Source of the DNA: Rhodoferax saidenbachensis
GTDB taxonomy: Bacteria > Pseudomonadota > Gammaproteobacteria > Burkholderiales > Burkholderiaceae_C
NCBI RefSeq assembly: GCF_001955715.1
Contig: NZ_CP019239.1
Location: forward strand, 868,001 to 932,000
Direction: 5' to 3'
Length of the DNA: 64,000 nucleotides
The position numbers and the translations under genes are program-made. Numbering within the stretch: the first letter of the stretch is position 1; every line of letters begins with the position of its first letter. The notes beneath the pieces are model-generated. The model had not been told where the DNA came from. It saw only the letters and a list, made by a program, of their open reading frames with translations, and ran no database searches. Positions 2,024 to 60,727 of this stretch are shown here, one piece after another.

Positions 2024-2629
2024 TCAGGAAAAAGCGCGCCAACCCCATACGATGCGGGTGGCGATGGTGATGCCGCACAGGCCGGCGAAGGCATAGGCGA
2101 GCAGCGCAAAGTGTTGCGGCCACAGGCACATGGCGGCAAAGAAGGCCAGCGTCTCGGTGGCCTCGGTCAGGCCACCCAAAAAGTAAAAGGACTTGTCGGG
2201 GTAATCGGTGTTGGTCAGGCCCCGCTTGGCGGCCAGCACCGCAAACGCCAGAAAGCTGCTGCTGGTGCCAATGAAGGCCGCCAGCAGTACGGCCGCGGCC
2301 AGCGCGTTGTCAGCAGGGCTGGCAAAGGCAAAGGCCAGCGGAATGCTCGCGTAAAACAGGAAGTCCAGCGCGATGTCCAGAAAGCCACCCGCATCGCTGG
2401 GGCGCGTCTCACGTGCCACCGCACCGTCCAATGCATCGCAAATTCTTGAGAGAAAAATAGCCACAGCCCCCGCCAAATATGCGTGAGCAGCTATCAAAAT
2501 TGCAGCAATCAGCCCGATGGCGAAGCCCACCAGCGTGATGCTATTGGCCCCTACCCGTGCGCGCACCAGCACCCGCGCAGTGGCGGTGACGGCGGGGCGG
2601 ATCAGGGCGGTGGCGAAGCGGTCGAGCAT
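2024..2629 (-). CDS. CDP-alcohol phosphatidyltransferase family membrane protein
   Basis: This 201-residue multi-pass membrane protein carries the family signature: D65, D68, G69, A72, R73, G81, D85 and D89, in the order DxxDGxxAR...GxxxDxxxD. Enzymes of this family transfer a phosphatidyl or related group from a CDP-alcohol to an acceptor alcohol at the membrane. The acceptor cannot be read from the sequence; known family members include PgsA and PssA. The gene is immediately upstream of the VTT/FAD oxidoreductase and on the same strand. Residues about 45-60, just before the active-site motif, are encoded by a copy of the short interspersed repeat described elsewhere (2453-2506). Confidence 0.85.
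   Translation of the reverse strand: MLDRFATALIRPAVTATARVLVRARVGANSITLVGFAIGLIAAILIAAHAYLAGAVAIFLSRICDALDGAVARETRPSDAGGFLDIALDFLFYASIPLAFAFASPADNALAAAVLLAAFIGTSSSFLAFAVLAAKRGLTNTDYPDKSFYFLGGLTEATETLAFFAAMCLWPQHFALLAYAFAGLCGITIATRIVWGWRAFS
2453..2506 (-). repeat. Short interspersed repeat, copy 1 (inside CDP-alcohol phosphatidyltransferase gene)
   Basis: Read on the minus strand it gives GATAGCTGCTCACGCATA followed by GGCGGGGGCTGTGGCTATTT, matching the family core ATAGCTGCTTGCGCA ... AGGGCTAGAGGCC. It is translated as part of a membrane helix (ILIAAHAYLAGA). Confidence 0.6.
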
Positions 2630-2725
2630 GGGGTGTGGCGGTGAGTGTTACACAAGCGGCACGCGGCATGTTGGCATGTGCGCTGCTCTGTGGAGTTGGG
2701 TTTGCTTTGTTCATTGTTTTTGCCG

Positions 2726-3213
2726 GCGGCGCACCTCGCTTTCCCCCCTATCCCCCCGCCCTTTCCACCCCGCCGGGCGGAAAGGGAGCCTTAACAGCCG
2801 ATCTTGCTTCTGCGTTCCGGCGACGGAATGATTGGGGGAGGTTGCCACCGTCTGTGTATGCCACGGCCAGAGCTTGCGGTTGTAGTGATTTCCATCGGGT
2901 GGGCTCTGAGCTGCTGGCGGCTGCGCCTGCCAGTGACGAGTCATAAGTTGGCCGCGTTCATATACCCGTTCGGGCTGAGCCTGTCGAAGCCCCACCCACC
3001 CATAAGCCCTGTCTCGCCGCTGGCGCGCAGCGGCCAGCCGGCTCCGAGCCAACCCGTTTGATACACCTACAACCGCATGCACTGGCCGTGGCGGACAGTA
3101 GCGGTGGCAACCTCACCCCGTGAACCCCTTTCCAAAACGAAACAACCAAATCGGCTGTTAAGGCTCCCTTTCCGCCCGGCGGGGTGGAAAGGGCGGGAAG
3201 CGAGGTGTGCCGC
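2726..3213. repeat. Long imperfect inverted-repeat element without genes
   Basis: The 670 bp between the phosphatidyltransferase start and the ABC ATPase stop hold no convincing gene. The two halves are diverged inverted copies of each other. The outer arms are near-identical for about 60 bp (2726-2792 against 3150-3213: GCACCTCGCTTTCC, then CCCTTTCCACCCCGCCGGGC, then GGAAAGGGAGCCTTAACAGC). Further inward, shorter blocks pair (GGTTGCCACCG, GCCACGGCC, TGCGGTTGTAG). A Comamonadaceae-type REP motif, GTTCGGGCTGAGCCTGTCGA, sits near the centre at about 2968. This could be a MITE-like or structured repeat; no transposase is present. Confidence 0.7.
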
Positions 3214-3302
3214 AGGTAAGAATAAAGTCGAAGAAAAGGGTCCCTCAGACAATCACTGTCTGGTCAAGCAGACCCAAAACCCTTCAGCTCGCGCTGCAAG
3301 CG

Positions 3303-3932
3303 CTAGGACGATGCGAGCTGCGTCAGATGCGCCGCATCAGCCACATCCCCCACATCGTGCGTCACCAGCAGCGCCGGAATATTGCGCGCCTTCACCAGCC
3401 CAAACACCAGCGCACGCATGCGGTCTTTCAGCGCGGCGTCGAGTTTGGAGAACGGTTCGTCCAACAACAACGCATGGGGCTGTGCCAGCAGCGCGCGCGC
3501 CAGTGCGATGCGGGTGCGCTGGCCGCCAGACAGGGTGGCGGGGTTGGCGTGGGTGGTGCCGGTCATTTCTACATCTGCCAATGCCTGCGCTACCTGCGCA
3601 TCGCGTGCGGCGCGCGGGCCGGCGGGCACGGCAAACAGCAGGTTCTCCCCCACGGTCATGTGGGCAAACAGCAGGTCTTCCTGAAACAGGATGCCTACGC
3701 GGCGTGCCTGTGTTGGCAGTGTGTCGATGCGCGTGCCTTCCAGTTGCACCTCGCCGTCAAACCGCAGGCCTTCGGGCAGCGTCCCGCACACTGCGGCCAG
3801 CAGGCTGGACTTGCCCGAACCGCTGGGCCCCATCAGCGTGTGTACCGTGCCGGGCGCTATCTGCAGATGCAGCCCACGGACCAGCGTCGTAGCGGGCGTG
3901 GACAGGTGGTGCACATGGATTTGCAGGCTCAT
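3303..3932 (-). CDS. ynjD: ABC transporter ATP-binding protein, YnjD-like
   Basis: This 209-residue ABC ATPase has a Walker A at 35-42 (GPSGSGKS), signature LSGGQ at 134-138, Walker B LLLDEP at 155-160 and switch histidine H192. It would power import by the permease encoded upstream at 4334-6034. Size and context match YnjD of the YnjBCD system, whose substrate is not firmly known. The start overlaps the stop of the Rieske gene by 4 bp, so translation is probably coupled. A YnjB-like binding protein is encoded about 10 kb away (14002-15198). Confidence 0.85.
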   Translation of the reverse strand: MSLQIHVHHLSTPATTLVRGLHLQIAPGTVHTLMGPSGSGKSSLLAAVCGTLPEGLRFDGEVQLEGTRIDTLPTQARRVGILFQEDLLFAHMTVGENLLFAVPAGPRAARDAQVAQALADVEMTGTTHANPATLSGGQRTRIALARALLAQPHALLLDEPFSKLDAALKDRMRALVFGLVKARNIPALLVTHDVGDVADAAHLTQLASS

Positions 3933-4321
3933 GGAGTGGGTGCGTCCTGGGCGATGCGGATATGGCCTTGCGCGTCGACCTCCAGCGGAATCGGCAGCAG
4001 CGATTCGCCCTCGCAGTCACCGGAGGTACACAGGCCATCGCTCCAGCGGTATTGGGCGTAGTGCACATTGCAGCTCACGCTGGTGTGCGGGGTGTAGATC
4101 AGGTGTTGCTGCTTTTCTGCCAGCGGCACGCCAAAGTGGGCACAGCGGTTCACATAGGCCTTGACCTCCGGGCCGCTGCGCAGCAACAGCAGTTTGAAGG
4201 TCTGCACGGTATGCATGCAGGCCGCGCCGTCCACCAGGGTGTCGCGCAGGCCCAGCAGCGTGCCGGGCGCGGGCGCGCCTGGCACGTCAAACCAGTGTTG
4301 GGGCGGTGGCAGGTCGCTCAT
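3929..4321 (-). CDS. Small Rieske [2Fe-2S] protein inside the ABC transporter operon
   Basis: This 130-residue protein has a Rieske cluster motif: C60-A-H62 and C84-xx-H87, 21 residues apart between H62 and C84. It has no signal peptide and no fused oxygenase domain, so it resembles a stand-alone ferredoxin-type Rieske protein. Two more cysteines (C98, C103) lie after the motif. It lies 12 bp after the permease stop and overlaps the ATPase start by 4 bp, so it is part of the same transcription unit. Its role next to an importer is unknown; electron transfer or redox sensing is an inference. Confidence 0.8.
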   Translation of the reverse strand: MSDLPPPQHWFDVPGAPAPGTLLGLRDTLVDGAACMHTVQTFKLLLLRSGPEVKAYVNRCAHFGVPLAEKQQHLIYTPHTSVSCNVHYAQYRWSDGLCTSGDCEGESLLPIPLEVDAQGHIRIAQDAPTP

Positions 4322-4333
4322 GGGGGCTGTGCG

Positions 4334-6034: not shown

Positions 6035-6047
6035 CGATAAATAGTAG

Positions 6048-6103
6048 TCAAACTGGCCTCTAGCCCTCATGGAGTATGCGCAAGCAGCTATGAAATATGT
6101 AGC
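6048..6103 (-). repeat. Short interspersed repeat, copy 2 (upstream of ABC permease)
   Basis: The minus strand reads GCTACATATTTCATAGCTGC then TTGCGCATACTCCATGAGGG then CTAGAGGCCAGTTTGA. It is one of the best-preserved copies and lies between divergent genes, in the 207 bp gap upstream of the permease and SDR genes. Confidence 0.75.
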
Positions 6104-10192: not shown

Positions 10193-10762
10193 ATGCGCCC
10201 AAAATCTTCAGGCTATTACGACCTTGCGAGTCGTGCTTTCCACTGGATCACCGCTGTTGCAGTGACTGCCGCCTTCATCCTGGGGCCCGGCGGGTTTGGC
10301 CGCCTGATGCGCAACGGCGTGGACCCGGCGACGCACAGCGACATCGTGTGGCACGAGTCTCTGGGGCTGCTGGTGTTCGCATTAACGGTGCTGCGTCTGC
10401 TGTGGGTGGCGTTGCGTCCTGCCGTGCCTCAATTTTCCATGGCACCGTGGATGCGTCTGGCATCCAAAGGGACGCATTTGGCGCTGTGGGCTCTGATGCT
10501 TGCCTTGCCGGTGACGGCGATTGTGGCTTTGGGCAGCGAAGGGCACCCTCTCACGCTGCTGGGCGGTATCCGTATCGACCAGATGCCCCTGATTGCCGAG
10601 TCCCCCATCGCCGGCCTTGCCGATTGGGGCGATGTGCACGGACTGCTGGGCGACGCCATCATGTGGATCGCCGGCCTGCACGCTGCTGCAGCCATCTTCC
10701 ACCATGTTCTCCTCCGGGACGGTGTGCTGGCCGCCATGCTGCCTTTCCTGCGTCGTCGCTAG
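10193..10762 (+). CDS. Cytochrome b561-type membrane protein
   Basis: This 189-residue protein has four hydrophobic segments and histidines placed as in bacterial di-haem cytochrome b561: H17 (FHWITA), H48/H54 region (HSDIVWHESLG), the second half H (HGLLGD) and HHV near the end. Members pass electrons from the quinol pool to partners in the periplasm or act with YceI-like proteins; neither partner is adjacent here. Start ATG at 10193 with AGGAG upstream. Confidence 0.8.
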   Translation: MRPKSSGYYDLASRAFHWITAVAVTAAFILGPGGFGRLMRNGVDPATHSDIVWHESLGLLVFALTVLRLLWVALRPAVPQFSMAPWMRLASKGTHLALWALMLALPVTAIVALGSEGHPLTLLGGIRIDQMPLIAESPIAGLADWGDVHGLLGDAIMWIAGLHAAAAIFHHVLLRDGVLAAMLPFLRRR

Positions 10763-10783: not shown

Positions 10784-10840
10784 TGAAATAGGCCTCTAGC
10801 CCGCATGCAGCATGCGCAGGCAGCTACCAAAACAGTAGCA
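10784..10840 (-). repeat. Short interspersed repeat, copy 3 (3' of yegD-like gene)
   Basis: The minus strand reads TGCTACTGTTTTGGTAGCTG, CCTGCGCATG, then GGGCTAGAGGCCTATTTC. It begins immediately after the Hsp70 stop codon and fills the gap to the convergent cytochrome b561 gene. Confidence 0.75.
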
Positions 10841-10842
10841 AT

Positions 10843-12114
10843 TTAGAACTGCTGTACCGCCCCGGCCCAGGCCAGTCCTGCGGCCACACCACCAAACCGG
10901 TTGCCCTCCACCAGCGTGGCCTGGGGCATGGCCTGGCGCAGCGCGGCTATCAGGGTGCGCAGGGCAGACGAGCCGCCGGTCAAATACACGGCATCCACCG
11001 CTTGCAGGCCCGCAGCCGCCACGCAGTCTTGCGCGCACCGCACCACCTGGGCGATGGACGTGTGCAGGGCCAGCTCCATGCTTTGCGCGTCAATGTGGGG
11101 CGTGAGTGTGCGGTCCAGAAAATCCAGATCCACCACGGCGCTGTCGCCGCTGATGGAGCAGGCGATTTTGGCGGCCTCCACACCCGCCAGCATGCGGTGG
11201 CCGTGTTGGCCTTCCAGCGCATCCATCAGGCGCGTGTGCAGCGCCGGGTCGGTGTAGGCGGTCCATAACTCGCGGGCAAAGTGCATGGACTTGCGTGTGT
11301 AGGCCTGGTGGATCAGGTGCCAGGTGCTCAGGTCAAAAAACACACTGTTGGGCACAATGCGCCCGCCCGTGCCCACATGTTTGTAGCCCAAGAGTGGCAT
11401 CACGGTGGCGAGGTCCAGCAGGCGGTCAAAGTCGGTGCCGCCGATGTGTACGCCGGTGGTGGCCAGGATGTCGGCGGTGCGGTCGCTCTGCGTGCTTCGC
11501 GCCGGGTTCAGGCGGATGACGGTGAAGTCGGATGTACCGCCGCCAATGTCCACCACCAGCGCGCTGGTTTCTTGCGCCACGCGCTGCTCATAGTCCAGCG
11601 CGGCGGCAATCGGCTCCAACTGGTAGGCGATGTGGGTGAAGCCGGCTTCCTGCGCGGCTTTGCCCAGCGTTTCCTGCGCGAGCAGGTCGCGGTCGGCGTC
11701 GTCGTCTACAAAGTGCACCGGGCGGCCCAGCATGGCGTGGGTCAGCGCATGGCCTGCGTGGGCTTCGCAGCGGCGTTTGAGCTCTTTGAAGAACAACACC
11801 ACGATGTCGAAGTAGCGAATGCTTTTGTCACCCACTGCGGTGTATTCGTCCATCAGCCTGCTCCCCAGCAGGCTCTTGAGGGAGCGCAGCAGCCGCCCCT
11901 CGGTGCCCGCCAGATAGGCCTGCATGGCCTCGGAGCCAAACAACACGGTGTGGGTTTCGCTGGCGAAGAACAGCGCGGTGGGCATCTCGCTGCGTGCGCC
12001 GTCCAGTGGAACGACCTGCAGTGTGCCGTCGGCCGCGATCAGCGCGGCGGCGGAGTTGGAAGTGCCAAAGTCAATGCCCAGTACCACCGGGCGTGTGGTG
12101 GTGTCCCCGCTCAC
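10843..12114 (-). CDS. yegD: Hsp70-family protein, YegD-like
   Basis: This is a 423-residue ATPase-domain-only Hsp70 relative. The phosphate-1 motif GIDFGTSNS is at about 13-21, DIGGGTSDF at 189-197 and the adenosine motif YLTGGSSALR is near 375. There is no substrate-binding or lid domain, as in E. coli YegD. I chose the GTG at 12114, which overlaps the esterase stop as GTGA; an open upstream extension of 31 codons runs antisense to no conserved sequence. Function of YegD is not established; the esterase upstream is probably co-transcribed. Confidence 0.85.
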   Translation of the reverse strand: MSGDTTTRPVVLGIDFGTSNSAAALIAADGTLQVVPLDGARSEMPTALFFASETHTVLFGSEAMQAYLAGTEGRLLRSLKSLLGSRLMDEYTAVGDKSIRYFDIVVLFFKELKRRCEAHAGHALTHAMLGRPVHFVDDDADRDLLAQETLGKAAQEAGFTHIAYQLEPIAAALDYEQRVAQETSALVVDIGGGTSDFTVIRLNPARSTQSDRTADILATTGVHIGGTDFDRLLDLATVMPLLGYKHVGTGGRIVPNSVFFDLSTWHLIHQAYTRKSMHFARELWTAYTDPALHTRLMDALEGQHGHRMLAGVEAAKIACSISGDSAVVDLDFLDRTLTPHIDAQSMELALHTSIAQVVRCAQDCVAAAGLQAVDAVYLTGGSSALRTLIAALRQAMPQATLVEGNRFGGVAAGLAWAGAVQQF

Positions 12115-17742: not shown

Positions 17743-19095
17743 ATGATTACTATCAAAACAGGAGCTGCTCGCGCACTATTGGCGGGGGCTACAGGCCTTT
17801 TTCTTATGAATTCTGGCTGGGCGGCCATTCCTATCCAACAGTGGACCCAGCCCTCGGGCGCGAAGGTATTCCTGGTGGAAAGCCCGGGCATTCCCATGGT
17901 GGATGTGCAGATTGACCTGGACGCTGGCGGACGCCGCGACACGGCGGACAAGGTGGGTCTGGCCAGCCTCACCGCATCAGGCACCGGCAATGGCGTGCGC
18001 GCTGTGGGCAAGGAGCCCGCACTGGATGAAAACGGCCTGAGCGAAGCCTGGGCCGATCTGGGCGCTTCGTTTGGCGGTAGTGCAGGATCCGACCGTATGA
18101 GTTTTGGCCTGCGCAGCCTGACCTACCCCGACATCCTGGCCCGTGCCACCGCGCTGGCCGCGCGCCAACTGGCCGAGCCGTCCTACCCGGAATCGGTCTG
18201 GCTGCGCGACCGCGCCAAACTTATCGCGTCCATCAAGGAAGCCAACACACGTCCCGCCACGCTCGCTGGCCGCGCCTATACCCAGGCGGTGTACGGCACG
18301 CACCCTTATGGTTTTGAAACCACCGAGGCCACGCTGAACCGCATCACCGTGCAGGACATGCGCGCCCTGCACACGCGCGTGGTGCGGCCCTGTGGGGCCA
18401 AGGTCAGCATCGTGGGCGCGCTCACGCGCGTGCAGGCCGATGCGCTGGTGACGCAACTCTTCGCCCGTCTGCCCGCCGGTACCTGTGCCGCGCAGGCCGC
18501 TGTGCCCGAAGTGCAGCCCTTGCAGGCCGCTACAGACCAGCGCATCGCCTTCGCATCTGCCCAGGCCCATGTGCTGGTGGGGCAGCCCGGTTATGCGCGC
18601 AGTTCGCCCGATCACTTTGCGTTGTTTGTCGGCAACCACATCCTGGGCGGCGGTGGCTTCACCTCGCGCTTGATGACCGAAGTGCGCGAAAAACGTGGCC
18701 TGACCTACGGCGTGTCCAGCAGCTTCTCACCGGGCCTGCACGCAGGTGCGTTCAGCATTGGTTTGCAAACCCGCCCCGACCAGGCCGAACAGGCACTGCA
18801 ACTGGTGCGTGAGGTGTTGGCAAAGTTTGTGACAGAAGGCCCCACCGAAGCCGAATTACAAGCCGCCAAGGACAACCTGATCGGTGGCTTCGCGCTGCGC
18901 ATCGATAGCAACCGCAAGCTGCTCGACAACGTGGCCAACATCGCCTGGGTCGGCCTGCCGCTGGACTACCTGGACACCTGGGCCCAGCGGGTTGAGAAGC
19001 TCACCGTGGACGACATCCGCGCCGCGTTTGCGCGGGTACTGCAGCCCGGGAAGATGGTGACGGTGGTCTTGGGCGCGCAGGACGCTGCGAAGTAG
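17743..19095 (+). CDS. M16 peptidase-like, non-catalytic partner subunit
   Basis: This 450-residue M16 homologue lacks HxxEH. It keeps the C-terminal Arg/Tyr-type substrate-binding element (REKRGLTYGVSS at about 313-324). Residues 1-29 form a signal peptide. I chose ATG 17743 because the preceding gene stops at 17731; an upstream extension would overlap it. The signal-peptide core (KTGAARALLAGATGLF) is encoded by short-repeat copy 4, suggesting the repeat contributed to or was shaped into the export signal. Confidence 0.85.
   Translation: MITIKTGAARALLAGATGLFLMNSGWAAIPIQQWTQPSGAKVFLVESPGIPMVDVQIDLDAGGRRDTADKVGLASLTASGTGNGVRAVGKEPALDENGLSEAWADLGASFGGSAGSDRMSFGLRSLTYPDILARATALAARQLAEPSYPESVWLRDRAKLIASIKEANTRPATLAGRAYTQAVYGTHPYGFETTEATLNRITVQDMRALHTRVVRPCGAKVSIVGALTRVQADALVTQLFARLPAGTCAAQAAVPEVQPLQAATDQRIAFASAQAHVLVGQPGYARSSPDHFALFVGNHILGGGGFTSRLMTEVREKRGLTYGVSSSFSPGLHAGAFSIGLQTRPDQAEQALQLVREVLAKFVTEGPTEAELQAAKDNLIGGFALRIDSNRKLLDNVANIAWVGLPLDYLDTWAQRVEKLTVDDIRAAFARVLQPGKMVTVVLGAQDAAK
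17746..17804 (+). repeat. Short interspersed repeat, copy 4 (signal peptide of M16 partner)
   Basis: ACTATCAAAACAGGAGCTGC then TCGCGCACTATTGGCGGGGG then CTACAGGCCTTTTT. It is diverged but alignable along its length to the family and in the same translated frame as copies 1, 5, 6 and 10. Confidence 0.55.
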
Positions 19096-24103: not shown

Positions 24104-24532
24104 TTACTTCTTGGTGCCGTCGGCCTTGGGGTCTGGGGCCGATTTGGCGGTGAAGAACTCGGGTTCTTTGCTCTTGGCCTTTTTCTTCTTCAATTCATCT
24201 TCTGTCTTGGTGTCGGCCTTGGCGCTGCTTTTGGCGCCCTTGGTTTTGTCAGCCGTCTTGCCCGCAATCTTGTTCTGGGCCAGGGCCTGCGCTTCTTCCT
24301 TTAGTCGGGCCTTTTCCATCGCGTCCGCTGCCTTGGCGTCCTGTTTGGTTTGCTTGTCCGCCTCGACCTTCTGCGCCTTGCTGCGCGCATCACCGGTATC
24401 TACGGTGACCGCGTCTGCGCAGGGGATCTGGCTGTAGCTGCTCCCGCATTTATAGACTTTTTGGCTCCAGGCCCCCGTAGGTATTGCGCAAGCAGCTATA
24501 AAAAGAGTAGCAAATGCGAGAGAATTCTTCAT
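24104..24532 (-). CDS. DUF4124-domain secreted protein
   Basis: This is a 142-residue protein with a signal peptide (residues ~1-23, [13 protein letters not shown]), then a DUF4124 start ([14 protein letters not shown]) and a Lys/Ala-rich, probably disordered tail. Function unknown; periplasmic location is inferred. The core of its signal peptide is encoded by short-repeat copy 5. The start overlaps the pth stop by 4 bp (ATGA), so it is translationally coupled to pth. Confidence 0.75.
24456..24511 (-). repeat. Short interspersed repeat, copy 5 (signal peptide of DUF4124 protein)
   Basis: The minus strand reads GCTACTCTTTTTATAGCTGC then TTGCGCAATACCTACGGGGG. The first half is an excellent match to the family. 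It is translated as [12 protein letters not shown]. Confidence 0.75.
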
Positions 24533-28208: not shown

Positions 28209-28709
28209 TTACTTGTCCAGGATGATTTTCAGCTCGGCAGGTACTTCTGGCGCCAGTCGACGGGCGTTCAGGCGACCTTCCGGCAAAGCACTGAGGTCCG
28301 CCTCCCAGCCGGCTGCGTTGGCGGGTTCGCCCTGTAGCCAGGCGAACAGGGCGACCACTGGCAATTCCGCGCCGGTGGCGTGGCGGGTCAGTGCGTCCAG
28401 CGATTCAAAATTCTGCGGCGCACCGGTGGTGACCAGTTGGGCCGAACGTGCATCCCATTGCAGGCGCGCCAGTGTGTTGCCCAGAGGCGAGGTAAAAGAC
28501 AGCACGCCGGCTTGCGCATCCCCCAGCAATTCAAAACTGGCCGCGAAAGACTGCACGGGCGTGGTCTGCACTTTCAGGGACAGACGCCCTTGCCAGGATC
28601 TTTCAGGAGGAAATTCGGCTCTATCCCTTATGGGAGTTGCGCAACCAGCTATAAAAATAATAGCTAAAGAGGCGGCCAGCCAGGCGCACAGGCGTTGCAC
28701 CACATTCAC
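28209..28709 (-). CDS. lolB: Outer-membrane lipoprotein LolB
   Basis: This 166-residue lipoprotein receives lipoproteins from LolA at the inner face of the outer membrane. The lipobox FIAGC places the lipidated cysteine at C23, followed by A. The mature part is a short LolB domain (WQGRLSLKV ... WLQGEP). The segment IFIAGCATPIRDRAEF, which includes the lipobox, is encoded by short-repeat copy 6. It overlaps the TPR gene stop by 4 bp and lies before ispE. Confidence 0.9.
   Translation of the reverse strand: MNVVQRLCAWLAASLAIIFIAGCATPIRDRAEFPPERSWQGRLSLKVQTTPVQSFAASFELLGDAQAGVLSFTSPLGNTLARLQWDARSAQLVTTGAPQNFESLDALTRHATGAELPVVALFAWLQGEPANAAGWEADLSALPEGRLNARRLAPEVPAELKIILDK
28611..28664 (-). repeat. 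Short interspersed repeat, copy 6 (lipobox of LolB)
   Basis: The minus strand reads GCTATTATTTTTATAGCTGG then TTGCGCAACTCCCATAAGGG then ATAGAGCCGAATTT. It is close to the intergenic copies, yet translated, and it contains the lipobox codons. Confidence 0.8.
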
Positions 28710-31300: not shown

Positions 31301-31371
31301 CCCCACGCTCCACCACTTCGCGGGTCGCTGCCCCCCCGAGGGGGCCTTCGCGCCTTGGGGCGGCCCGGCGG
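31301..31371 (+). repeat. GC-rich hairpin repeat behind mutM
   Basis: It contains GCGGGTCGCTGCCCCCC, GAGGGGGC and CCTTGGGGCGGCCCGGCGGC, starting 2 bp after the mutM stop. Nested stems (CCCCC/GGGGG and CCGCC.../...GGCGG) may terminate transcription. Related copies are at 33408, 62576 and a weak one at 58910. Confidence 0.7.
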
Positions 31372-33407: not shown

Positions 33408-33484
33408 CCCCCACGTTCCGCCGCTACGCGGGTCGCTGCCCCCCGAGGGGGCGCGGCCTTGCTTGGGGCGGCCCGGCGCGGCGG
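33408..33484 (+). repeat. GC-rich hairpin repeat between the dynamin-like gene and mutY
   Basis: ACGCGGGTCGCTGCCCCCC, GAGGGGGC and CTTGGGGCGGCCCGGCG, a second copy of the element behind mutM. It ends just before the likely mutY start codon, so it may fold over the ribosome entry region. Confidence 0.7.
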
Positions 33485-33493: not shown

Positions 33494-34537
33494 GTGAAGC
33501 GTCCCGGAGGTGACTTCGCCACCCAGGTGGTGAAGTGGCAAAAGCAGCACGGTCGCAACGACCTCCCCTGGCAGAACACCCAGGACCCGTACCGGGTCTG
33601 GCTGTCTGAAATCATGCTGCAGCAAACCCAGGTGGTCACCGTGCGTGGCTACTTCGCACGTTTTCTCGACAAATTCCCTGACGTTGCTTCCTTGGCCGCT
33701 GCTTCACAAGATGAGGTCATGGGCCTGTGGAGTGGTCTGGGCTATTACAGCCGCGCACGCAACCTGCACCGCTGCGCGCAGGATGTGGTGGCGTTGCATG
33801 GCGGCCAGTTCCCACGCGACGCGGCCACACTGACCACACTGACCGGTATTGGCCGTTCCACCGCGTCAGCCATCAGCTCGCTGTGTTTTGGCGAGCGCGT
33901 GGCGATTCTCGATGCCAATGTGAAACGGGTGGTGACACGTGTGCTGGGCTTTGATGCGGATCTGGCGCAGTCCGCCAACGAACGCGCCTTGTGGGACGCC
34001 GCGACGACGTTGATACCCAAGCGCAGCCAGGACATGGCGCGGTATACCCAGGGCATGATGGATCTGGGCGCCACGGTGTGTCTGCCCAAGAAACCGAACT
34101 GTGCGGCGTGTCCGGTGCAGGCTTCATGTGTTGCCAGGAAGGCGGGTAACCCGGAGCGCTTTCCGGTGCGCACACGCAAGCTCAAGCGTTCGAGCCAGTC
34201 GATTTGGTTGTTGTGGTTGCAGCGCGAGGATGGTGCGGTGTGGTTGTCGAAGCGGCCTACGCCGGGGGTGTGGGCTGGATTGCAGTGTTTCCCGCTGTTT
34301 GACAGTGAGGATGCCTTGCGTGCGGCACTGTCTGCTCGCTTGCTGCGGGGGCTGGAGATGTTGCCGGTGTTTACCCATGTACTTACGCACAAAGACCTTT
34401 TTCTGCATCCAGCCCGCGTGGAGGTTGCGCAGGAAGCTATGGATTTAGGAGCGGGGGAGTGGTTTTCTCCGGCGCAGTGGGAGGCTGCGGGGTTGCCGGC
34501 GCCTATTCGGAAGTTGTTGGTTTCCGCTGGGGCTTAG
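33494..34537 (+). CDS. mutY: A/G-specific adenine glycosylase
   Basis: This 347-residue protein removes adenine paired with 8-oxoguanine. It has catalytic E in SEIMLQQTQV, helix-hairpin-helix LTTLTGIGRSTASAI, catalytic D in LDANVKRV, the [4Fe-4S] ligands C-x6-C-xx-C-x5-C and a C-terminal NUDIX-like domain. The start is uncertain: the frame is open through the GC-rich repeat, and GTG 33494 or TTG 33488 are the nearest codons after it. No clear ribosome site is seen. With mutM it forms the GO repair system. Confidence 0.9.
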   Translation: MKRPGGDFATQVVKWQKQHGRNDLPWQNTQDPYRVWLSEIMLQQTQVVTVRGYFARFLDKFPDVASLAAASQDEVMGLWSGLGYYSRARNLHRCAQDVVALHGGQFPRDAATLTTLTGIGRSTASAISSLCFGERVAILDANVKRVVTRVLGFDADLAQSANERALWDAATTLIPKRSQDMARYTQGMMDLGATVCLPKKPNCAACPVQASCVARKAGNPERFPVRTRKLKRSSQSIWLLWLQREDGAVWLSKRPTPGVWAGLQCFPLFDSEDALRAALSARLLRGLEMLPVFTHVLTHKDLFLHPARVEVAQEAMDLGAGEWFSPAQWEAAGLPAPIRKLLVSAGA

Positions 34538-34556
34538 CTTTTTTCTACTGAGAAGG

Positions 34557-35132
34557 TTTGATTGTTTGGCATGTCGGGATGTGCGCCCGACAGCGCACTT
34601 ACTTTCTTTGCTTCGCCAAAGAAAGTAAGCAAAGAAAGGCGAGCCGGATTCGTCGGCCCTTCGCTTCGCTACGGGCACGCTGCGTTGCTCGGTTTGGGCG
34701 GGGTCTGGCTCGAACTCGCTGCGCTCAAACAATCGCCAGCCCTGATCCGCCCAAACCTGCGCTACTCGCCTCCTCATTACGGCGTGGAGTCCAAATACAG
34801 ACAGCCGGATACCAAAGTCCGAACTTCGTCCGCGCTGCGCGCGGACGGGTATTCATCTCTCTTGGCCGAGCGCAGCGATGGCCTGTGCTCCCCCAATCCC
34901 TTCTGTATGCGCCGAGGAGCGCAGGGGGCGACGGATCAGGACTGGCGATTGTTTGAGCCGAAGGCGAGTTCGAGCCAGGCCCCGTCGACACCGAGCACCG
35001 CAGGTTGCCCCGAAGCGCAGCGTAGGGGACGCAGACAGCAGGGTCGCCTTTCTTTTGGTGACTTTTCTTTGGCGAAGCAAAGAAAAGTTACTGCGCTGTC
35101 GGGCGCACAACCCGACATGCCAAAACATCAAA
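34557..35132. repeat. Large palindromic element (576 bp) with long terminal inverted repeats
   Basis: The ~700 bp between mutY and rapZ hold this element and short-repeat copy 7. The terminal repeats are about 80 bp, nearly perfect: TTTGGCATGTCGGG, TGTGCGCCCGACAGCGCA, CTTTGCTTCGCCAAAGAAA, AAAGAAAGGCGA. Further inward, shared blocks (TGGCTCGAACTCGC, CTCAAACAATCGCCAG, CCTGATCCG) continue to about 200 bp from each end. The arms contain small open frames on both strands that mirror each other; I regard them as by-products of the palindrome. No transposase. Similar structured repeats are known from Burkholderiales genomes in general recollection. Confidence 0.8.
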
Positions 35133-35175
35133 TCATCCCGCCGAAGCGAATTTAGCTGGCAAGAAACCGAAAAAT

Positions 35176-35233
35176 GCTATGAAATAAATAGCTACCTGCG
35201 CACATTCCAAAAGGGCTAGGGCCACTTTTGGCA
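35176..35233 (+). repeat. Short interspersed repeat, copy 7 (3' of rapZ)
   Basis: GCTATGAAATAAATAGCTAC then CTGCGCACATTCCAAAAGGG then CTAGGGCCACTTTTGGCA. It lies between the large palindrome and the rapZ stop codon. Confidence 0.75.
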
Positions 35234-35241: not shown

Positions 35242-36126
35242 TCACCGCGCGTCCATCTCCCGATGCCGCTTCAGCGTGATCCACTCCGGCCCAAACCGCT
35301 GCGCCAGTTTCTCCACCAGATAAACCGACCGGTGCTGCCCCCCGGTGCAACCAATCGCCACCGTCACATAACTGCGGTGATCCCGCGCCAGTGCGTCCAG
35401 CCAGTTCTCCAGGAAATGGATGATGTGGTGCAGCATCAAGTCCACATCGGGCTGTGCCTGCAAAAAGTCGATCACCGGCTGGTCACGCCCGGTCAGGTGT
35501 TTGAGTTCGGGGTCGTAGTGCGGGTTGGGCAGCATGCGCACGTCGAATACGTAGTCTGCGTCTGACGGCACACCGCGCTTGAAGGCGAAGGACTCGAATA
35601 CCAGTGTGAGTTGCCCGCCTGGTGCGGCAATCAGTGTCTTCACGTAGCCCTGCAGTTGCGCGGGGCGGATGATGCTGGAGTCGATGACGTGGGCCTGCTC
35701 GCGCAGTGCGGCCAGCAGCTCGCGTTCCAGCTCAATCGCGTCCACCAGCGCGCGGCGTTCGTCCTGGACGCCGTGGTCCGAGCTGTTTTGCGACAGCGGG
35801 TGTTTGCGCCGGGTTTCGGAATAACGGCGCACCAGCGTGTCGGTGGTGGCGTCCAAGAAAAGTGACTTGACGACGATGCCTTGGGCGCGCAAAGCCTGGA
35901 GTTGCTGCGGCACCTGTGGCAGCGAAGTGGCGCTGCGCACGTCCATGGCGATGGCCAGGCGGTGGGCTTGGTGCTTTTGCTCCAGCTCGACAAAGGGCAA
36001 CAGCAGCTCGGGCGGCAGGTTGTCCACGCAGTAGTAGCCGGCGTCTTCCAGTGCGTGCAGCGCCACTGATTTGCCGGAACCTGACATGCCGGTGATGAGC
36101 ACGATTTCCATGGTGGTGTCTGCCAT
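35242..36126 (-). CDS. rapZ: RNase adapter protein RapZ (YvcJ-type P-loop protein)
   Basis: This 294-residue protein has an N-terminal P-loop GMSGSGKS (about 13-20) and the family motif [15 protein letters not shown] near 210-224. The C-terminal domain includes [15 protein letters not shown]. In E. coli RapZ binds GlcN-6-P and guides RNase E to the small RNA GlmZ; whether that holds here is unknown. I used ATG 36126, right after the recN stop; MEIVLITG at 36111 is an alternative. It is downstream of recN. Confidence 0.92.
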
Positions 36127-37802: not shown

Positions 37803-38699
37803 TCAGGCCACGCCTTCATTCCAGTGCATTTTTTGCCGCAAGGTGTCAAAGTAAGTCCAGCCCTTGGGGTGCAAGAAGCGCACCCGGTGCTCTGACAGCG
37901 TGACTTCGATGCGGTCACCGTGCATCAGGCTGGCCAGGGATTGCATGTCAAAGTTGGCGCTGGCGTCACGGCCTGCTACTATTTCTATAGCTATCTGCGC
38001 AGTGTTGGAGAGGGCTATAGGCCGATTTGACAATGTATGGGGGGCGATGGGCACCATCACCCAGGCCGGAATGGAAGGGTGTAACAGCGGTCCGCCGGCG
38101 GACAGTGAATAGGCCGTAGAGCCTGTGGGGCTGGCGATGATCAGGCCGTCGGCCCGCTGGTTGGACACAAAACGCCCGTCCACCTCCACGCGCAACTCCA
38201 CCATGCCCGAGGTGGCGCCGCGGTTGACCACCACGTCGTTCATGGCCAGCGCGCTGAACACGCAGTGCCCGTCGCGCATCACGCGGGCCTGCATCAGGCT
38301 GCGGTCGTCCTGCTCGTAGTCGCCCGCCAGCATGGGCCCCAGCGTGACCTTGTACTGGTCAAACGGAATGTCGGTGATAAAGCCCAGGCGCCCCTGGTTG
38401 ATGCCGATCAGCGGCACGCCGTACTGCGCCAGCTGGCGGCCAATGCCCAGCATGGTGCCGTCGCCACCCACCACCAGGCCCAGGTCGCATTGCGCACCAA
38501 TGTTGGCCACGTCCATCGCGGTGTAGCTGGTCAGGCCCATGTTGGCGGCGGTGTCGGCCTCCAGCACCACGTCGCAGCCCTGGTCCATCAGGAAGTGGGC
38601 AATGTCGTCCAGCGCCTTGCGCGTGGAGGCCCCGGCGCAGCCCGCGGCGGTAGCGTGGTATTTGCCTATGAGCGCAACCTGGCGGAATTTGGACTTCAT
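37803..38699 (-). CDS. nadK: NAD kinase
   Basis: This 298-residue enzyme phosphorylates NAD to NADP. It has the GGDGT motif at 78-82, the NQGRLGF segment and the [14 protein letters not shown] loop. I chose ATG 38699 ([12 protein letters not shown]), since the open frame upstream lies in the 38729-38995 element. A family repeat (copy 8) overlaps the codons for [20 protein letters not shown] near residue 240, in the opposite orientation to the other in-gene copies. Confidence 0.95.
37975..38032 (+). repeat. Short interspersed repeat, copy 8 (antisense inside nadK)
   Basis: GCTACTATTTCTATAGCTAT then CTGCGCAGTGTTGGAGAGGG then CTATAGGCCGATTTGACA. It matches both halves of the consensus, although it lies in a conserved enzyme. 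Confidence 0.7.
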
Positions 38700-44493: not shown

Positions 44494-44546
44494 AGGAGAG
44501 GCGTGTGGCACTGACGGGCACAGCATGGTTGCGCCAAGAGTGCTTC

Positions 44547-44599
44547 ACTATTGATAGCTGATTGCGCAATACCCATGAGGGCTAGGGCCCGATTTTGCC
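44547..44599 (+). repeat. Short interspersed repeat, copy 9 (3' of merR-type gene)
   Basis: ACTATTGATAGCTGATTGCG then CAATACCCATGAGGGCTAGG then GCCCGATTTTGCC. It lies between the PIG-L gene start and the MerR regulator stop. Confidence 0.75.
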
Positions 44600-47171: not shown

Positions 47172-48326
47172 ATGAAATTCACCCCTGAGCACACGCAGAT
47201 ATCCGACACGGTGCGCAAGTTCGTCGCCAACGAGATCAACCCCTTCACCGCCGAGTGGGAAAAGGCCGGCCAGTTCCCCGCACACAAGCTGTTCAAGAAG
47301 ATGGGCGACCTGGGCCTGTTGGGCATCAAGTACCCCACCGAGTTTGGCGGCATGGGGCTGGACTTCAGCTACTCCATGGTGGCGGCAGAAGCGCTGGGTG
47401 ACTGCAACGTGGGCGGTGTACCTATGGCCATTGGCGTGCAGACCGATATGTGCACCCCGGCGCTGGCACGCTTTGGCTCCGATGAGCTGCGCCACGAATT
47501 CCTGGCACCAGCCATTGCAGGTGACATGGTGGGCTGTATTGGTGTGAGCGAAGTGGGTGGAGGCTCTGACGTGGCTGCGCTCAAGACCACCGCCACCAAA
47601 GACGGCGGCGACTACCTGATCAACGGCTCCAAGATGTGGATCACCAACGGCATGCAAGCCGACTGGTGCTGCCTGCTGGTCAACACCAGCGAAGGCGCCG
47701 TGCACAAGAACAAGTCGCTGATCATGGTGCGGCTGGACAGCCCCGGCGTCACGCGCCAAAAGATCGAAAAAATCGGCATGCACAGCAGCGACACCGCCCA
47801 ACTGTTCTTTGACAACGTGCGTGTGCCGCAGAAAAATCTGATTGGGCAAGAGGGCGCGGGCTTCATGTTCCAGATGCTGCAGTTCCAGGAAGAGCGCCTG
47901 TACGGTGCCGCCGGTTCGCTGCGTTCGCTGGACAATCTGATCGACCAGACCATTGATTACACGCGCCAGCGCAAGACTTTTGGCCAGCCCATCCTCAACA
48001 ACCAGGTCGTGCACTTCCGCCTGGCAGAGCTGCGCACCGAAGTGGAAGCGCTGCGCGCGCTGACCTACCGTGCGGTGGAGCAATACGTGGGCGGCAAAGA
48101 TGTGACCAAGCTGGCGTCCATGGCCAAGCTCAAAGCCGGGCGCCTCTCCCGCGAAGTGGCCGATACCTGCCTGCAGTACTGGGGTGGCATGGGTTACACG
48201 GCCGACAACCCGATCTCGCAAGCCTTTCGCGATGGCAGGTTGATTTCCATTGGCGGCGGCGCCGACGAGATCATGCTGGGCATCATCTGCAAGCTCGAAG
48301 GCACTTTGCCCGGAAAACAGCAATGA
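47172..48326 (+). CDS. atuD: Acyl-CoA dehydrogenase, AtuD/citronellyl-CoA-dehydrogenase-like
   Basis: This 384-residue FAD flavoenzyme introduces the alpha-beta double bond in a branched acyl-CoA. It has the VSEVGGGSD-type FAD/substrate segment, WITNG and the C-terminal QYWGGMGYTADNPISQAFRDGRL. The catalytic base is expected in GGGADEIM. The start KFTPEHTQISDTVRKFV and the motif GVQTDMCTPALARFG resemble AtuD. It overlaps the hydratase start by 4 bp. Confidence 0.8.
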   Translation: MKFTPEHTQISDTVRKFVANEINPFTAEWEKAGQFPAHKLFKKMGDLGLLGIKYPTEFGGMGLDFSYSMVAAEALGDCNVGGVPMAIGVQTDMCTPALARFGSDELRHEFLAPAIAGDMVGCIGVSEVGGGSDVAALKTTATKDGGDYLINGSKMWITNGMQADWCCLLVNTSEGAVHKNKSLIMVRLDSPGVTRQKIEKIGMHSSDTAQLFFDNVRVPQKNLIGQEGAGFMFQMLQFQEERLYGAAGSLRSLDNLIDQTIDYTRQRKTFGQPILNNQVVHFRLAELRTEVEALRALTYRAVEQYVGGKDVTKLASMAKLKAGRLSREVADTCLQYWGGMGYTADNPISQAFRDGRLISIGGGADEIMLGIICKLEGTLPGKQQ

Positions 48327-49153
48327 CTATTGCTATGAATTTAGTAGCTGTCTGCGCAGAACAGACGGGGGATACGCTGCAAATTACCTTGAATCGTCCT
48401 GAAGCGCGCAATGCTATGTCGTTGCAGATGGTGGGGGAGTTGTGCCAGGTGCTGCAGGCGGCGGAAGCCACTGCGGGTCAACCGGATGCCGTGCGCGTGG
48501 TGGTGTTGCGCGGTGCGGGCGGGCACTTCTGCGCTGGCGGTGATCTGAAAGACATGGCTGCGGCGCGTATGCAAACCATGCAGAAGGCGGATGGCGCCGA
48601 AGACCCGATTGCGAAGGTAAACGCTGAGTTCGGCGCGCTGTGTGTGGCCTATGCGAACACACCGCTGGCTGTTGTCGCCGTACTCGAAGGCACAGTCATG
48701 GGCGGTGGTTTTGGCCTGGCCTGTGTGGCTGATGTGGCAATTGCCACGGAGACCGCAAGCTTCCGTTTGCCCGAGACCTCTTTGGGCGTGGTGCCCGCAC
48801 AGATTGCGCCGTTCCTCGTCGAACGCCTGGGCTATTCGCAGGCGAAGCGCCTGGCGGTCACCGGTGGTCGTCTTGACGCTGCTGCAGCTTTGCACCTTGG
48901 CTTGGTGCATGAAGTCACCGGCACTGCTACCGTGCAAACCGTGCTGGACCGCGTGCTGGCCGACATCCTGGCCTGCGCACCCGGCGCATTGGCTGCGACC
49001 AAGGCCTTGATGGCACGTGCACGGCTGGAGACACCACAGAGTCTGGTACAGGACGCCGCCGCCATTTTCTCCCGCGCTGCCATGGGCCCCGAAGGTCTGG
49101 AAGGCATGACCGCATTTATTCAGAAACGCAAACCACAGTGGGCTTTGCCATGA
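48323..49153 (+). CDS. atuE: Enoyl-CoA hydratase/isomerase, AtuE/LiuC-like
   Basis: This 276-residue crotonase-fold protein would hydrate the carboxylated glutaconyl-CoA intermediate. It has the oxyanion segment GAGGHFCAGGDLKDM and the second EGTVMGGGFGLACVADVAIA. The catalytic glutamate position is in LPETSLGVVP. The N-terminal residues (MTIAMNLVAVCAEQTGD) come from short-repeat copy 10, replacing the usual strand sequence. ATGA overlaps on both sides show tight coupling. Confidence 0.82.
   Translation: MTIAMNLVAVCAEQTGDTLQITLNRPEARNAMSLQMVGELCQVLQAAEATAGQPDAVRVVVLRGAGGHFCAGGDLKDMAAARMQTMQKADGAEDPIAKVNAEFGALCVAYANTPLAVVAVLEGTVMGGGFGLACVADVAIATETASFRLPETSLGVVPAQIAPFLVERLGYSQAKRLAVTGGRLDAAAALHLGLVHEVTGTATVQTVLDRVLADILACAPGALAATKALMARARLETPQSLVQDAAAIFSRAAMGPEGLEGMTAFIQKRKPQWALP
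48332..48371 (+). repeat. Short interspersed repeat, copy 10 (first half only; N terminus of hydratase)
   Basis: GCTATGAATTTAGTAGCTGT then CTGCGCAGA. Only the 5' half is recognisable. It is translated in the same frame as copies 1, 4, 5 and 6. Confidence 0.55.
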
Positions 49154-56257: not shown

Positions 56258-56273
56258 GGGATTCTCCGAAAGA

Positions 56274-56900: not shown

Positions 56901-56906
56901 GGGGCC

Positions 56907-57824: not shown

Positions 57825-57903
57825 TGCGGTTTCTCGCATCATGGGAACGGCCCCGAGAATAACCCGGTTCAGACGCACCAGACGAGCTTAAAACCCCAAA
57901 TTT

Positions 57904-58908: not shown

Positions 58909-58909
58909 A

Positions 58910-58978
58910 GACCCCCACGGCCGCGGTGCTCCCTGCGCCCCACCGGGGTGCTGGCCTCCTTGAGGTAGCCCGGCGGAG
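58910..58978 (+). repeat. Weak copy of the GC-rich hairpin repeat behind the kinase gene
   Basis: CCCCCACGGCCGCGG, CCCCACCGGGG and TAGCCCGGCGG follow the kinase stop by 1 bp. The order of motifs agrees with the copies behind mutM and hemW, but the sequence is diverged. Confidence 0.45.
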
Positions 58979-58984
58979 GTCTGC

Positions 58985-59898
58985 ATGAAGTTTTCTGTTT
59001 TCCAAATCAGCCGCAAAGGCGGGCGTGAGAAAAACGAAGACCGCATGGGGTATTGCTATACCAAGAGTTCGGGCCTGTTTCTGCTGGCGGATGGAATGGG
59101 TGGGCACCCCGAAGGGGAGGTTGCCGCGCAGATGGTGCTGCAGGTCATCTCCGCCCTGTACCAGAAGGAAGCCACGCCGGAGATTGCCGACGTCAAGGCA
59201 TTCTTCAACATGGCCATCATGGCGGCCCATCGCCAGATCCTGAAATACGCCGCTGAAAAAAATCTGGGCGACACCCCGCGCACTACACTGGTTGCCGCCA
59301 TTGTGCAGGGCGGCACAGCCACCTGGGTGCATTGCGGCGATTCCCGCCTGTACACATGGTGCGCCACGGCGAGATGCTGGCGCGTACGCGTGACCACTCT
59401 TACCTGGAGCAGCGCCAGAGCGTGCATCCAGAAGCACTGCCCGCCAATTTCAACCGCAATGTGCTCTACACCTGCCTGGGCTCACCCACCAAGCCGGTGT
59501 TTGATGTGACCGGCCCGGTCTTGCTGCAGCAGGGCGACCGCATCATGCTCTGTTCGGATGGCCTGTGGGGCAGTCTGGATGACGAGGACATCGTGTTCCA
59601 CCTGGCGCAGAAGTCGGTGGCCACGGCGGCCCCTGATCTGGTGGAGCGCGCGCTCATGAAGGGAGGCCCCCAGAGCGACAACGTGACGCTGATTGCCATG
59701 GAGTGGGAGACGCCCGACCATTTCGAATCCACGCGGGGCAGCATTTCCACCGACAGTATTGAGGACGGCGTGTTTGCGTCCACTGTACAGGGTGGTTGGC
59801 TGGACTCGGATGTGGAGGATATGGACGATGCGGCCATTGAACGCTCCATCGCCGAAATCAACGAAGCCATTCGCCGCTCTGCGGCCCGCAAATCCTGA
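58985..59898 (+). pseudogene. PP2C-type protein phosphatase, frameshifted
   Basis: The first frame (58985 to about 59353) carries SRKGGREKNEDRMG and the metal-binding DGMGGHPEGE, and ends in HCGDSRLY. The second frame (from 59356) continues MVRHGEMLARTRDHSYLEQ, then LCSDGLWG and QSDNVT. The two join exactly if two bases (AC, within TACACATG at 59351-59358) are removed, giving a ~303-residue enzyme. The change may be a sequencing error, a real inactivating mutation or a recoding site. If read as is, the product stops at 59509 without the second metal site. Confidence 0.8.
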
Positions 59899-59953
59899 GT
59901 CCACCAACCTGAGTCCGTTGTCGGGCTCTGTCTGTCCATTTCCAAGGATTCCC

Positions 59954-60682
59954 ATGACTGAGTTTGTTCGCAGCGGTGCCCGTGCCGCCCATTCCCTGCG
60001 CCCGGTGCGCATCACCCGCAACTACACCATCCACGCCGAAGGCTCGGTGCTGATCGAGTTTGGCGCTACCCGCGTGCTGTGCACCGCATCGGTGGAAGAA
60101 CGCGTGCCGCCGCACAAGCGCGGTAGCGGCGAAGGCTGGGTGACCGCCGAGTACGGCATGCTGCCGCGCGCCACCCACACCCGCAGCGACCGCGAGGCCG
60201 CGCGTGGCAAACAAAGCGGGCGTACGCAGGAGATCCAGCGCCTGATTGGCCGCTCGCTGCGTGCTGTGTTTGACTTGAAGAAACTGGGCGAACGCACCAT
60301 CCAGCTCGACTGCGATGTGATCCAGGCCGACGGTGGCACCCGCACCGCCGCCATCACGGGCGCCTTTGTCGCGGCACAAGACGCGGTCAACGGCTTGCTC
60401 AAAGCCGGCAAAATCACCGAGACGCCCATCACGGCTGCCGTGGCAGCCATCAGCGTCGGGCTGGTGCAGGGCACGCCGCTGCTGGACCTGGAATACACCG
60501 AAGACTCGGCCTGCGACACCGACATGAATGTGGTGATGACAGGCGCCGGCCACTTTGTTGAAGTGCAGGGTACGGCCGAGGGAGTGGCCTTCACGCGTGC
60601 CGAGATGGACCAGTTGCTGGGATTGGCCGAAAAAGGCATCTCCGAGTTGATGGTTTTGCAGCAGCAATCGCTATCAAAGTAA
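59954..60682 (+). CDS. rph: Ribonuclease PH
   Basis: This 242-residue phosphorolytic 3'-5' exoribonuclease trims tRNA 3' ends. [24 protein letters not shown] binds phosphate and RNA, and [19 protein letters not shown] and DMNVVMTG are the other family blocks. The stop codon lies inside short-repeat copy 11, so the last residues (SLSK) are repeat-derived. ATG 59954 follows AAGGAT. Confidence 0.95.
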
Positions 60683-60727
60683 TAGCTGGTTGCGCACAAT
60701 CCATAAGGGCTAGAGGCCAATTTGACA
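60670..60727 (+). repeat. Short interspersed repeat, copy 11 (rph stop to rdgB start)
   Basis: GCTATCAAAGTAATAGCTGG then TTGCGCACAATCCATAAGGG then CTAGAGGCCAATTTGACA. This is the best full-length copy. It contains the rph stop codon and ends on the first base of the rdgB start. Confidence 0.85.

Follow-up and report, generated by a model that had tools for sequence, protein, structure and literature searches.

Within the chromosome of Rhodoferax saidenbachensis we analyzed one 64-kb stretch (G000:C1:868001-932000), referred to as the window herein, which carries twelve copies of a short interspersed repeat of 55 bp. A preliminary description of the same DNA had pointed to eleven such copies in both orientations. 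When the window was searched with a profile of the repeat, each of those eleven places was found to carry a copy at E<1e-3, six on the plus strand and five on the minus strand, and a twelfth copy was added at 34403-34452 on the minus strand. Scores span 53.0 bits (6051-6103) to 30.1 bits (2462-2506). The copies and the genes that they touch, as called by our own gene finder and not drawn from curated annotation, are as follows:

2462..2506, minus strand: copy in a frame of the CDP-alcohol phosphatidyltransferase family (2024-2629, minus; PF01066), where it encodes part of a hydrophobic segment; 30.1 bits, E 4.5e-7.
6051..6103, minus strand: intergenic copy, the best of the window; 53.0 bits, E 3.3e-14.
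10786..10840, minus strand: copy between converging genes (10262-10762, plus; 10843-12114, minus); 48.2 bits.
17750..17802, plus strand: copy immediately upstream of 17806, where the start of a peptidase M16-like gene was called (frame 17743-19095 matches PF05193); with an upstream start it would give, judged by eye, a signal-peptide-like N-terminus; 44.9 bits.
24462..24512, minus strand: copy at the N-terminus of a small frame (24104-24532, minus) for which protein-family searches found no family, encoding by eye a signal-peptide-like stretch; 39.8 bits.
28611..28664, minus strand: intergenic copy; 42.0 bits.
34403..34452, minus strand: copy within mutY (A/G-specific adenine glycosylase; TIGR01084), in the NUDIX domain (PF14815); 34.0 bits, E 2.8e-8.
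35175..35229, plus strand: copy between converging genes (33494-34537, plus; 35242-36126, minus); 43.9 bits.
37974..38028, plus strand: copy within the NAD kinase gene (37803-38699, minus; NF002561); 35.9 bits.
44542..44595, plus strand: intergenic copy; 46.1 bits.
48331..48374, plus strand: copy (columns 1-44) at the N-terminus of, or just upstream of, an enoyl-CoA hydratase gene (PF00378; start at 48323 or 48416); 30.2 bits.
60670..60723, plus strand: copy overlapping the end of the RNase PH gene (TIGR01966) on its 3′ side and reaching the ATG (60727) of an rdgB/HAM1-type gene (TIGR00042); 52.7 bits.

By these calls, four of the twelve copies lie fully in genes, one lies over a gene 3′ end, and seven are intergenic. 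The coding overlap previously reported for six of the eleven copies is reached only if upstream starts are used for the copies at 17750 and 48331.

The profile was built by aligning the eleven copies and was then iterated with nhmmer over a host sample of 1.26 Mb (of 4.26 Mb), consisting of the window and 60 tiles around the 4,264,855-bp chromosome. At our cut-off for a copy (E<1e-3), it yielded 181 copies in the sample, which extrapolates to ∼610 copies genome-wide. No match at this cut-off was found in an order-1 Markov shuffle or in the reversed sequence, where the best scores were 13.7 and 11.2 bits, respectively; the preliminary description had named a profile search as its check, and the outcome lies far beyond a handful of chance matches. 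Counted over the whole genome, exact matches to the 15-base core ATAGCTGNTTGCGCA number 164, and its reversed pattern has none. These exact cores divide 62 and 102 between the strands, with over-representation on both. When a strict pattern of the repeat was sought across the class, it occurred in 1 of 369 genomes, the host itself, in a sample with only two other genomes of the family.

The consensus of the repeat, read 5′ to 3′, is TGCTAtnaatTtnaTAGCTGCTTGCGCAnnntccAcgnGGGCTagAGgCcnaTTT. The repeat totals ∼64 bits of information over 55 columns with rigid spacing. Among 184 aligned copies (E<1e-2), the CT at columns 3-4, the AGC at columns 16-18, and the CGCA at columns 25-28 are 98-100% fixed, and the GGGCT at columns 39-43 is 86-94% conserved; columns 7, 13, 29, 31, and 51 are nearly free (0.07-0.26 bits). 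The end columns (1-2 and 52-55) are often missing in local alignments, and their conservation is overstated. Sampled copies share a mean pairwise identity of 65% and a maximum of 89%. Since neutral decay would not keep blocks fixed while erasing the columns between them, an element that spread once and has been decaying ever since is unlikely. We also considered a protein family encoded by the copies and rejected it, as no Pfam family scored above cut-off for seven translated frames that cover intergenic copies.

Placement of the 181 copies departs from random expectation. We found 102 intergenic copies and 63 that lie fully in genes, while 11 overlap a gene at its 3′ end and 5 at its 5′ end; random placement would give 27.5, 143, 5.4, and 4.9, respectively. 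For 97 of the intergenic copies both neighbors are known, and these comprise 25 between converging, 64 between codirectional, and 8 between diverging genes; the available intergenic regions of at least 55 bp number 67, 339, and 130, respectively. Copies often sit near gene ends, with 49 of 114 distances to 3′ ends falling below 20 bp. Both this closeness and the 25 copies in 67 converging regions could be expected of an RNA-level signal at gene ends, such as a terminator, an element of the 3′ untranslated region, or a processing site, and the Acidovorax spelling of the repeat (see below) further offers complementary blocks, GCGCTtg and aAGCGC. However, RNAalifold gave 0 consensus pairs in 150 copies, which also bears out the earlier remark that no long palindrome accompanies the repeat, and an Rfam search gave no match at the copies. 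Moreover, copies between codirectional genes occur in both orientations (25 same, 39 opposite), and 33 of the 63 copies in genes are antisense. An RNA-level signal is thus a very improbable account of the repeat. The copies in genes have a lower mean score than the intergenic ones (35.9 vs 43.6 bits) and lie mostly in one codon phase (antisense 0/4/29, sense 2/7/21). Neighboring copies are also spaced more evenly than expected at short range, since pairs closer than 1 kb number 7 where two gene-aware null models expect 16.8 (standard deviation 3.5) or 14.1 (standard deviation 3.3), with P values of 0.004 and 0.013.

The genes that host copies include mutS (two matches), a uvrD-like gene, xseA, dinB, dprA, truB, lpxK, lolD, folP, nadE, coaBC, dapF, fabD, and a transketolase gene, in addition to mutY and the NAD kinase gene of the window. 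Genes of DNA repair and recombination recur among these hosts (mutS, mutY, uvrD-like, xseA, dinB, and dprA), the names being those of a chosen subset of the 60 host genes. In Neisseria, the DNA uptake sequences (DUS) are biased toward genome-maintenance genes.

Had a copy entered a gene as a 55-bp insertion, the protein would be expected to carry 18 extra residues. We found no such insertion in 11 comparisons with copy-free congeners, in 81 dapF orthologues, or in five comparisons with solved structures. The congeners were two Rhodoferax genomes (G600 and G597) with no copy in the 291 and 347 kb sampled, and their tblastn alignments, at 45% identity or more and with orthology presumed, cover 10 different copies of the 63 queried. 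Seven of the 11 alignments are gapless across the copy (5/8 in G600 and 2/3 in G597); in the remaining four the gap is 3, 4-5, 6, or 13 residues, and for the gaps of 3 and 13 it is the copy-free protein that is longer. Among the solved structures, LolD, dihydropteroate synthase, and CoaBC are gapless across the copy, and TruB and FabD show 4 and 6 extra residues, respectively. MutS was aligned from the 17 of 30 loci that were read in the correct frame, the other 13 being left out; of its seven copy-free loci, three are gapless in the copy, one is longer by 3 residues, and three are longer by 13. At 26.4 bits, the copy in the transketolase gene is weak, and copy-free G600 has a peptide 94% identical to the one it encodes; weak matches in genes may therefore in part be coincidences or incipient copies.

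At dapF, the copy falls on identical codons in records of Rhodoferax, Acidovorax, Simplicispira, Giesbergeria, Extensimonas, and Polaromonas. The corresponding protein segment is 27 residues long in 59 of the 81 orthologues, a count made after an incomplete row (L199) was dropped. This length was found in all 25 orthologues that score at least 10 bits and in 34 of the 56 others (20 of the 41 without any score), and the remaining segments have 23-29 residues, except for one of 39. In some genera this stretch of protein is written in AT-rich codons matching the repeat, and in others the same stretch uses GC-rich codons without a match. Judging from these alignments, the dapF copy arose by substitution in place over a long time, and the in-gene copies are not simple insertions in the genes compared.

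We placed the copies relative to a copy-rich sister Rhodoferax (G572; 13.8 copies per 100 kb), whose MutS is 87% identical to that of the window species. Of the 181 copies, 18 could be placed and 15 of these sites carry a copy in the sister; in the reverse direction, all 16 sites placed from 57 copies at E<1e-2 carry one, although one pair is weak (18 bits). For instance, the copy at 60670..60723 has an orthologous copy in the sister species (L177 13407) with equal gap length (60 and 60 bp). At orthologous sites in the copy-free congeners we found copies in 0/8 cases for G600 and 0/6 for G597. The two copy-rich species differ at column 40, which is G in 94% of 181 copies of the window species and C in 89% of 54 copies of G572. 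In orthologous pairs G faces C in 13 of 15, one pair having C in both and one G in both. Identity within these pairs is 86-88% for high-information columns, compared with 52-62% for low-information ones. That a single base should switch at many sites, unlinked and stationary, suggests a trans-acting reader.

These comparisons bear on the very active copying mechanism that the preliminary description had offered as one explanation. Such a mechanism would make the repeat akin to a miniature inverted-repeat transposable element, a repetitive extragenic palindromic (REP) sequence, or a Rickettsia palindromic element (RPE), mobilized in trans by a transposase and in part domesticated within genes, and this would agree with its high copy number, its two orientations, and its preference for intergenic DNA (102/181). 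Some intergenic sites also differ by more than the length of a copy between genomes with and without it. The claim that no transposase accompanies the copies holds for the copies themselves and fails for the genome at large, where a Y1_Tnp search found one gene like those of REP-associated tyrosine transposases (RAYT) at L079:4575-5319, outside the window; a weak copy (24.6 bits) touches its 3′ end only. On the other hand, no two sampled copies exceed 89% identity, sites are common to two species, the genes compared lack the 18-residue insertion, and orthologous copies differ by a one-base switch in place. In addition, the repeat has no palindrome and 63 of 181 copies lie fully in genes. A RAYT/REP driver was rejected on these grounds. 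REP and RPE are likewise short dispersed repeats, and RPE are also found in frame within genes, but both are palindromic and insert, unlike the repeat described here and its compared in-gene copies. Very active copying is thus not supported and, as far as its sequences tell, the repeat is not a recent copying element; for the copies studied, the inserting-repeat explanation is largely refuted, and we give it hardly any credence.

To compare the repeat among genera, we sampled each named contig with a single stretch around dapF, no longer than 21 kb, and columns were compared only for copies matched by the Rhodoferax profile (29 from the Acidovorax group and 17 from Polaromonas). In the Acidovorax group, column 28 changes from A (98%) to T (78%) and column 40 from G (94%) to C (81%), and the resulting form, GCTAtnaAAtnaatAGCTgCTnGCGCTtgcngnnnaAGCGCtaGAGGCcnTTTT, has 46 copies in 257 kb. 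Polaromonas has a form of its own with 28 copies in 215 kb. The 16 matches of the Variovorax group are mostly the dapF site itself, and this group was left out as a dialect. We observed 0 copies in 191 kb around dapF in the group of Hydrogenophaga, Hylemonella, Comamonas, Diaphorobacter, and Malikia. A survey of 61 genomes of the genus, which takes in the host and many incomplete genomes, and scores no more than 89 copies per genome, gave at least 88-89 copies in 25 genomes, 12-41 in 4, 1-5 in 8, and 0 in 24; presence is nearly all-or-none within the genus. In the wider family, as delimited by the search, 74 of 200 genomes match, with no more than 27 copies counted in each. The idea that the copy-free congeners hide another dialect was rejected, as five dialect profiles gave 0 matches in the sampled stretches of G600 and G597, and the commonest 11-mer of G600 has 24 of its 26 occurrences in one repetitive stretch (L130).

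Because the repeat is conserved block by block, is spelled in species dialects, and is nearly all-or-none in its presence, a DNA-level function read in trans is supported by the sequence comparisons. Of the DNA- or RNA-level function proposed in the preliminary description, it is the DNA half that these features uphold; the RNA half finds neither consensus pairs nor an Rfam match. By analogy, the pattern resembles the hallmarks of DNA uptake sequences, and we consider it probable, with some reserve, that the repeat is a 55-bp uptake-type DNA sequence kept by a trans-acting reader. We infer that such a reader exists and that its role lies in uptake: a surface or periplasmic part of the transformation machinery would prefer a long, rigidly spaced tag on double-stranded DNA. 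Fragments of dead relatives that carry a good copy would be taken up and recombined more often, and good spellings would replace bad ones at homologous places (molecular drive). This drive, and not selection on individual copies, would build and keep copies by substitution wherever this is tolerated, that is beside stops, between converging genes, and in permissive coding segments, and we infer the same origin for the intergenic copies. If the reader changed, the copies would drift jointly to a new spelling, giving a dialect; if it were lost, they would decay. Preferential uptake followed by homologous recombination would be the simplest mechanism compatible with in-place substitution, with permissive sites in conserved genes, with the spacing and dialects, and with absence from whole genomes.

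Only two families of bacteria, Neisseriaceae and Pasteurellaceae, have uptake sequences on record, as motifs of ∼9-12 nt, and the uptake signal sequence (USS) of the Pasteurellaceae has a core of 9 bp, extended to 17 bp (PMC12616744). Like the DUS of the Neisseriaceae, which are read by the minor pilin ComP and number hundreds to thousands of copies, the repeat forms dialects, and two DUS dialects likewise differ by a single base (PMC3630211). Unlike the DUS of 10-12 bp, it spans 55 columns in several spaced blocks. With the USS it shares a core with an AT-rich flank, even spacing, and copies in non-coding or unconstrained coding DNA, for which accumulation by point mutation has been argued (PMC1939737), and it differs from the USS in its sequence, its greater length, and the class of bacteria in which it occurs. 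For DUS and USS, accumulation via preferential uptake and homologous recombination has been argued, and their origin is disputed as regards drive or selection and point mutation or recombination (PMC1939737, PMC2397512).

A number of observations weigh against an uptake function. Information is spread along the repeat, as 27 of the 55 columns hold at least 1.2 bits and are distributed over columns 1-55, so that no short core of 9-12 bp is seen; 55 columns and ∼64 bits would be hard for a single minor pilin to read. Competence genes were tried as a discriminator among the 61 genomes and rejected, as they do not separate copy-rich from copy-free ones. ComEC (TIGR00361) is found in 56, the ComP_DUS pilin (PF16732) in 49, copy-rich and copy-free alike, and GspH/FimT (PF12019) in 56; matches to ComEA (TIGR00426) occur in 46, but none exceeds the cut-off, and most lie in long frames that probably encode something other than ComEA. 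An alignment of pilins from 30 loci revealed by eye no residue that separates the groups and singled out no receptor. Even spacing is weaker outside the 1-kb range, with P values of 0.08 and 0.20 for pairs closer than 500 bp and of 0.02 and 0.05 for those closer than 2 kb. Copy-less tiles number 4 of 60 with 3.6 expected from a Poisson distribution, which gives no sign of depletion in accessory DNA. DUS are described as rare in accessory DNA, whereas the linear 31.9-kb ‘plasmid’ of Rhodoferax antarcticus (NZ_CP019241.1; L289) holds 7 copies (E<1e-3) in 23.3 kb, six of them on one strand and at a density above that of the chromosome sample; this record may be a chromosomal fragment rather than a plasmid. 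At three intergenic sites the copy-free genomes are shorter by 77, 130, and 138 bp, and three further sites, without a copy in G572, show gap differences of -3, +68, and +218 bp. Because gap lengths differ between genomes with and without the copy, gain or loss by insertion or deletion is possible at intergenic sites. Lastly, uptake, binding, and transformation are all predictions from sequence here.

Several of these points would suit the main rival, in which the repeat is the binding site of a chromosomal system for nucleoid organization, segregation, recombination, or repair, with a wide multi-block footprint and each of its hundreds of sites under selection. A footprint of 55 bp with separated blocks and AT-rich columns fits a wrapping or multimeric protein better than the tip of a pilin, while spacing, dialects, and all-or-none presence fit any trans-acting reader, and the competence families searched do not account for presence and absence. 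For such a binder, however, selection would have to be strong at ∼600 sites that are largely redundant, some of them lying in genes that are essential in other organisms. It would also be at odds with the lack of replichore bias among the 181 sampled copies (45/61 vs 37/38, P 0.37), as signals of the KOPS (FtsK orienting polar sequence) and Chi types are replichore-biased. No replichore effect was seen among copies of at least 40 bits either (27/41 vs 19/24, P 0.69), and a replication-linked orientation was rejected. Below ∼1.9-2.1 Mb, the exact cores favor the minus strand ∼3:1 by eye, among the matches listed. A chromosomal binder that acts at promoters is disfavored because copies are few between diverging genes (8, with 130 such regions of at least 55 bp). 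On balance, we regard a chromosomal binding site as unlikely, if far less so than the RNA-level or inserting explanations.

Should the repeat be an uptake sequence, a broader proposal follows, which we advance tentatively and with slightly more doubt than conviction. A third lineage of sequence-addressed DNA exchange would comprise much of the Comamonadaceae (Rhodoferax, Acidovorax, Simplicispira, Giesbergeria, Extensimonas, and Polaromonas), whose genomes would bear as a tag a 55-bp multi-block uptake sequence that varies by dialect. This sequence would be several times longer than those described and would be read by a new multimeric or DNA-wrapping receptor, not by a single ComP-like pilin.

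Parts of the repeat appear to have been recorded before. A motif survey of 2017 lists two pairs, GCTTAT(N)5AAGCG in Acidovorax ebreus and ATAGCT(N)22CAAAAG in Polaromonas naphthalenivorans, with 114 and 125 copies that are mostly intergenic, 44 and 34 of them between converging genes, and Rhodoferax ferrireducens T118 had the most motif pairs among the surveyed genomes (140); its available passages present the pairs as potential novel motifs with no function, dialect, or uptake reading attached (PMC5217627). As published, the A. ebreus pair falls on columns 26-31 and 37-41 of the repeat (Acidovorax consensus GCTtgc and aAGCG) with the same spacing, and the P. naphthalenivorans pair falls on columns 14-19 (ATAGCT, exact) and 42-47 (CTAGAG vs CAAAAG), also with the same spacing. 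Judged from these published motifs, both pairs are probably fragments of the repeat family. In the open-access PMC literature we found no report of a Comamonadaceae uptake sequence and no earlier account of the full element, its evolution in genes, its dialects, its pattern of absence, or an uptake reading.

The repeat also occurs outside the family. A DUF1010 (PF06231) gene between dfrA12 and aadA2 on plasmid pCTX-M3 of Citrobacter freundii carries a copy (L288:593-638) whose highest score, 37.5 bits (E 4e-11), is with the Acidovorax dialect, and the same 37-base match is present in 17 of the best 20 plasmid records among 1,749 records with some match. The cassette corresponds to gcuF or orfF of class 1 integrons, and its copy suggests that it originated in a Comamonadaceae-like genome. 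The window contains further repeats in addition to the one described here. Just after mutY, nested inverted repeats with one center occupy 34552-35137, with arms of 54, 47, and 46 nt that are 85-87% complementary, making a hairpin-like region of ∼585 bp. A second repeat family, with CCCCCC and GGGG blocks, has three copies of ∼70 nt at 31301-31370, 33409-33478, and 62577-62646, the later copies being 71-79% identical to the first of the three. Another inverted repeat (2755-2911 / 3041-3197) has 157-nt arms that are 79% complementary and 129 nt apart.

If the repeat does not serve uptake, a 55-bp address read in trans at ∼600 places and imposed on conserved genes would be equally unexplained. 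If it does, it would be a third case of an uptake sequence, and its dialects, the one-base switch between sister species, and its absence within a genus would make a natural experiment on how uptake sequences originate. It could also account for the self-preference of transformation in Acidovorax and Verminephrobacter, whose species A. temperans and V. eiseniae are relatives of the host in the same family. Both A. temperans and A. facilis have been shown to be transformable, A. temperans by conspecific DNA only, and uptake by V. eiseniae proceeds via type IV pili with signs of selective binding; the available passages of that work name no sequence behind this self-preference (PMC4212676). With an uptake sequence of this kind, environmental Comamonadaceae could become easier to transform.

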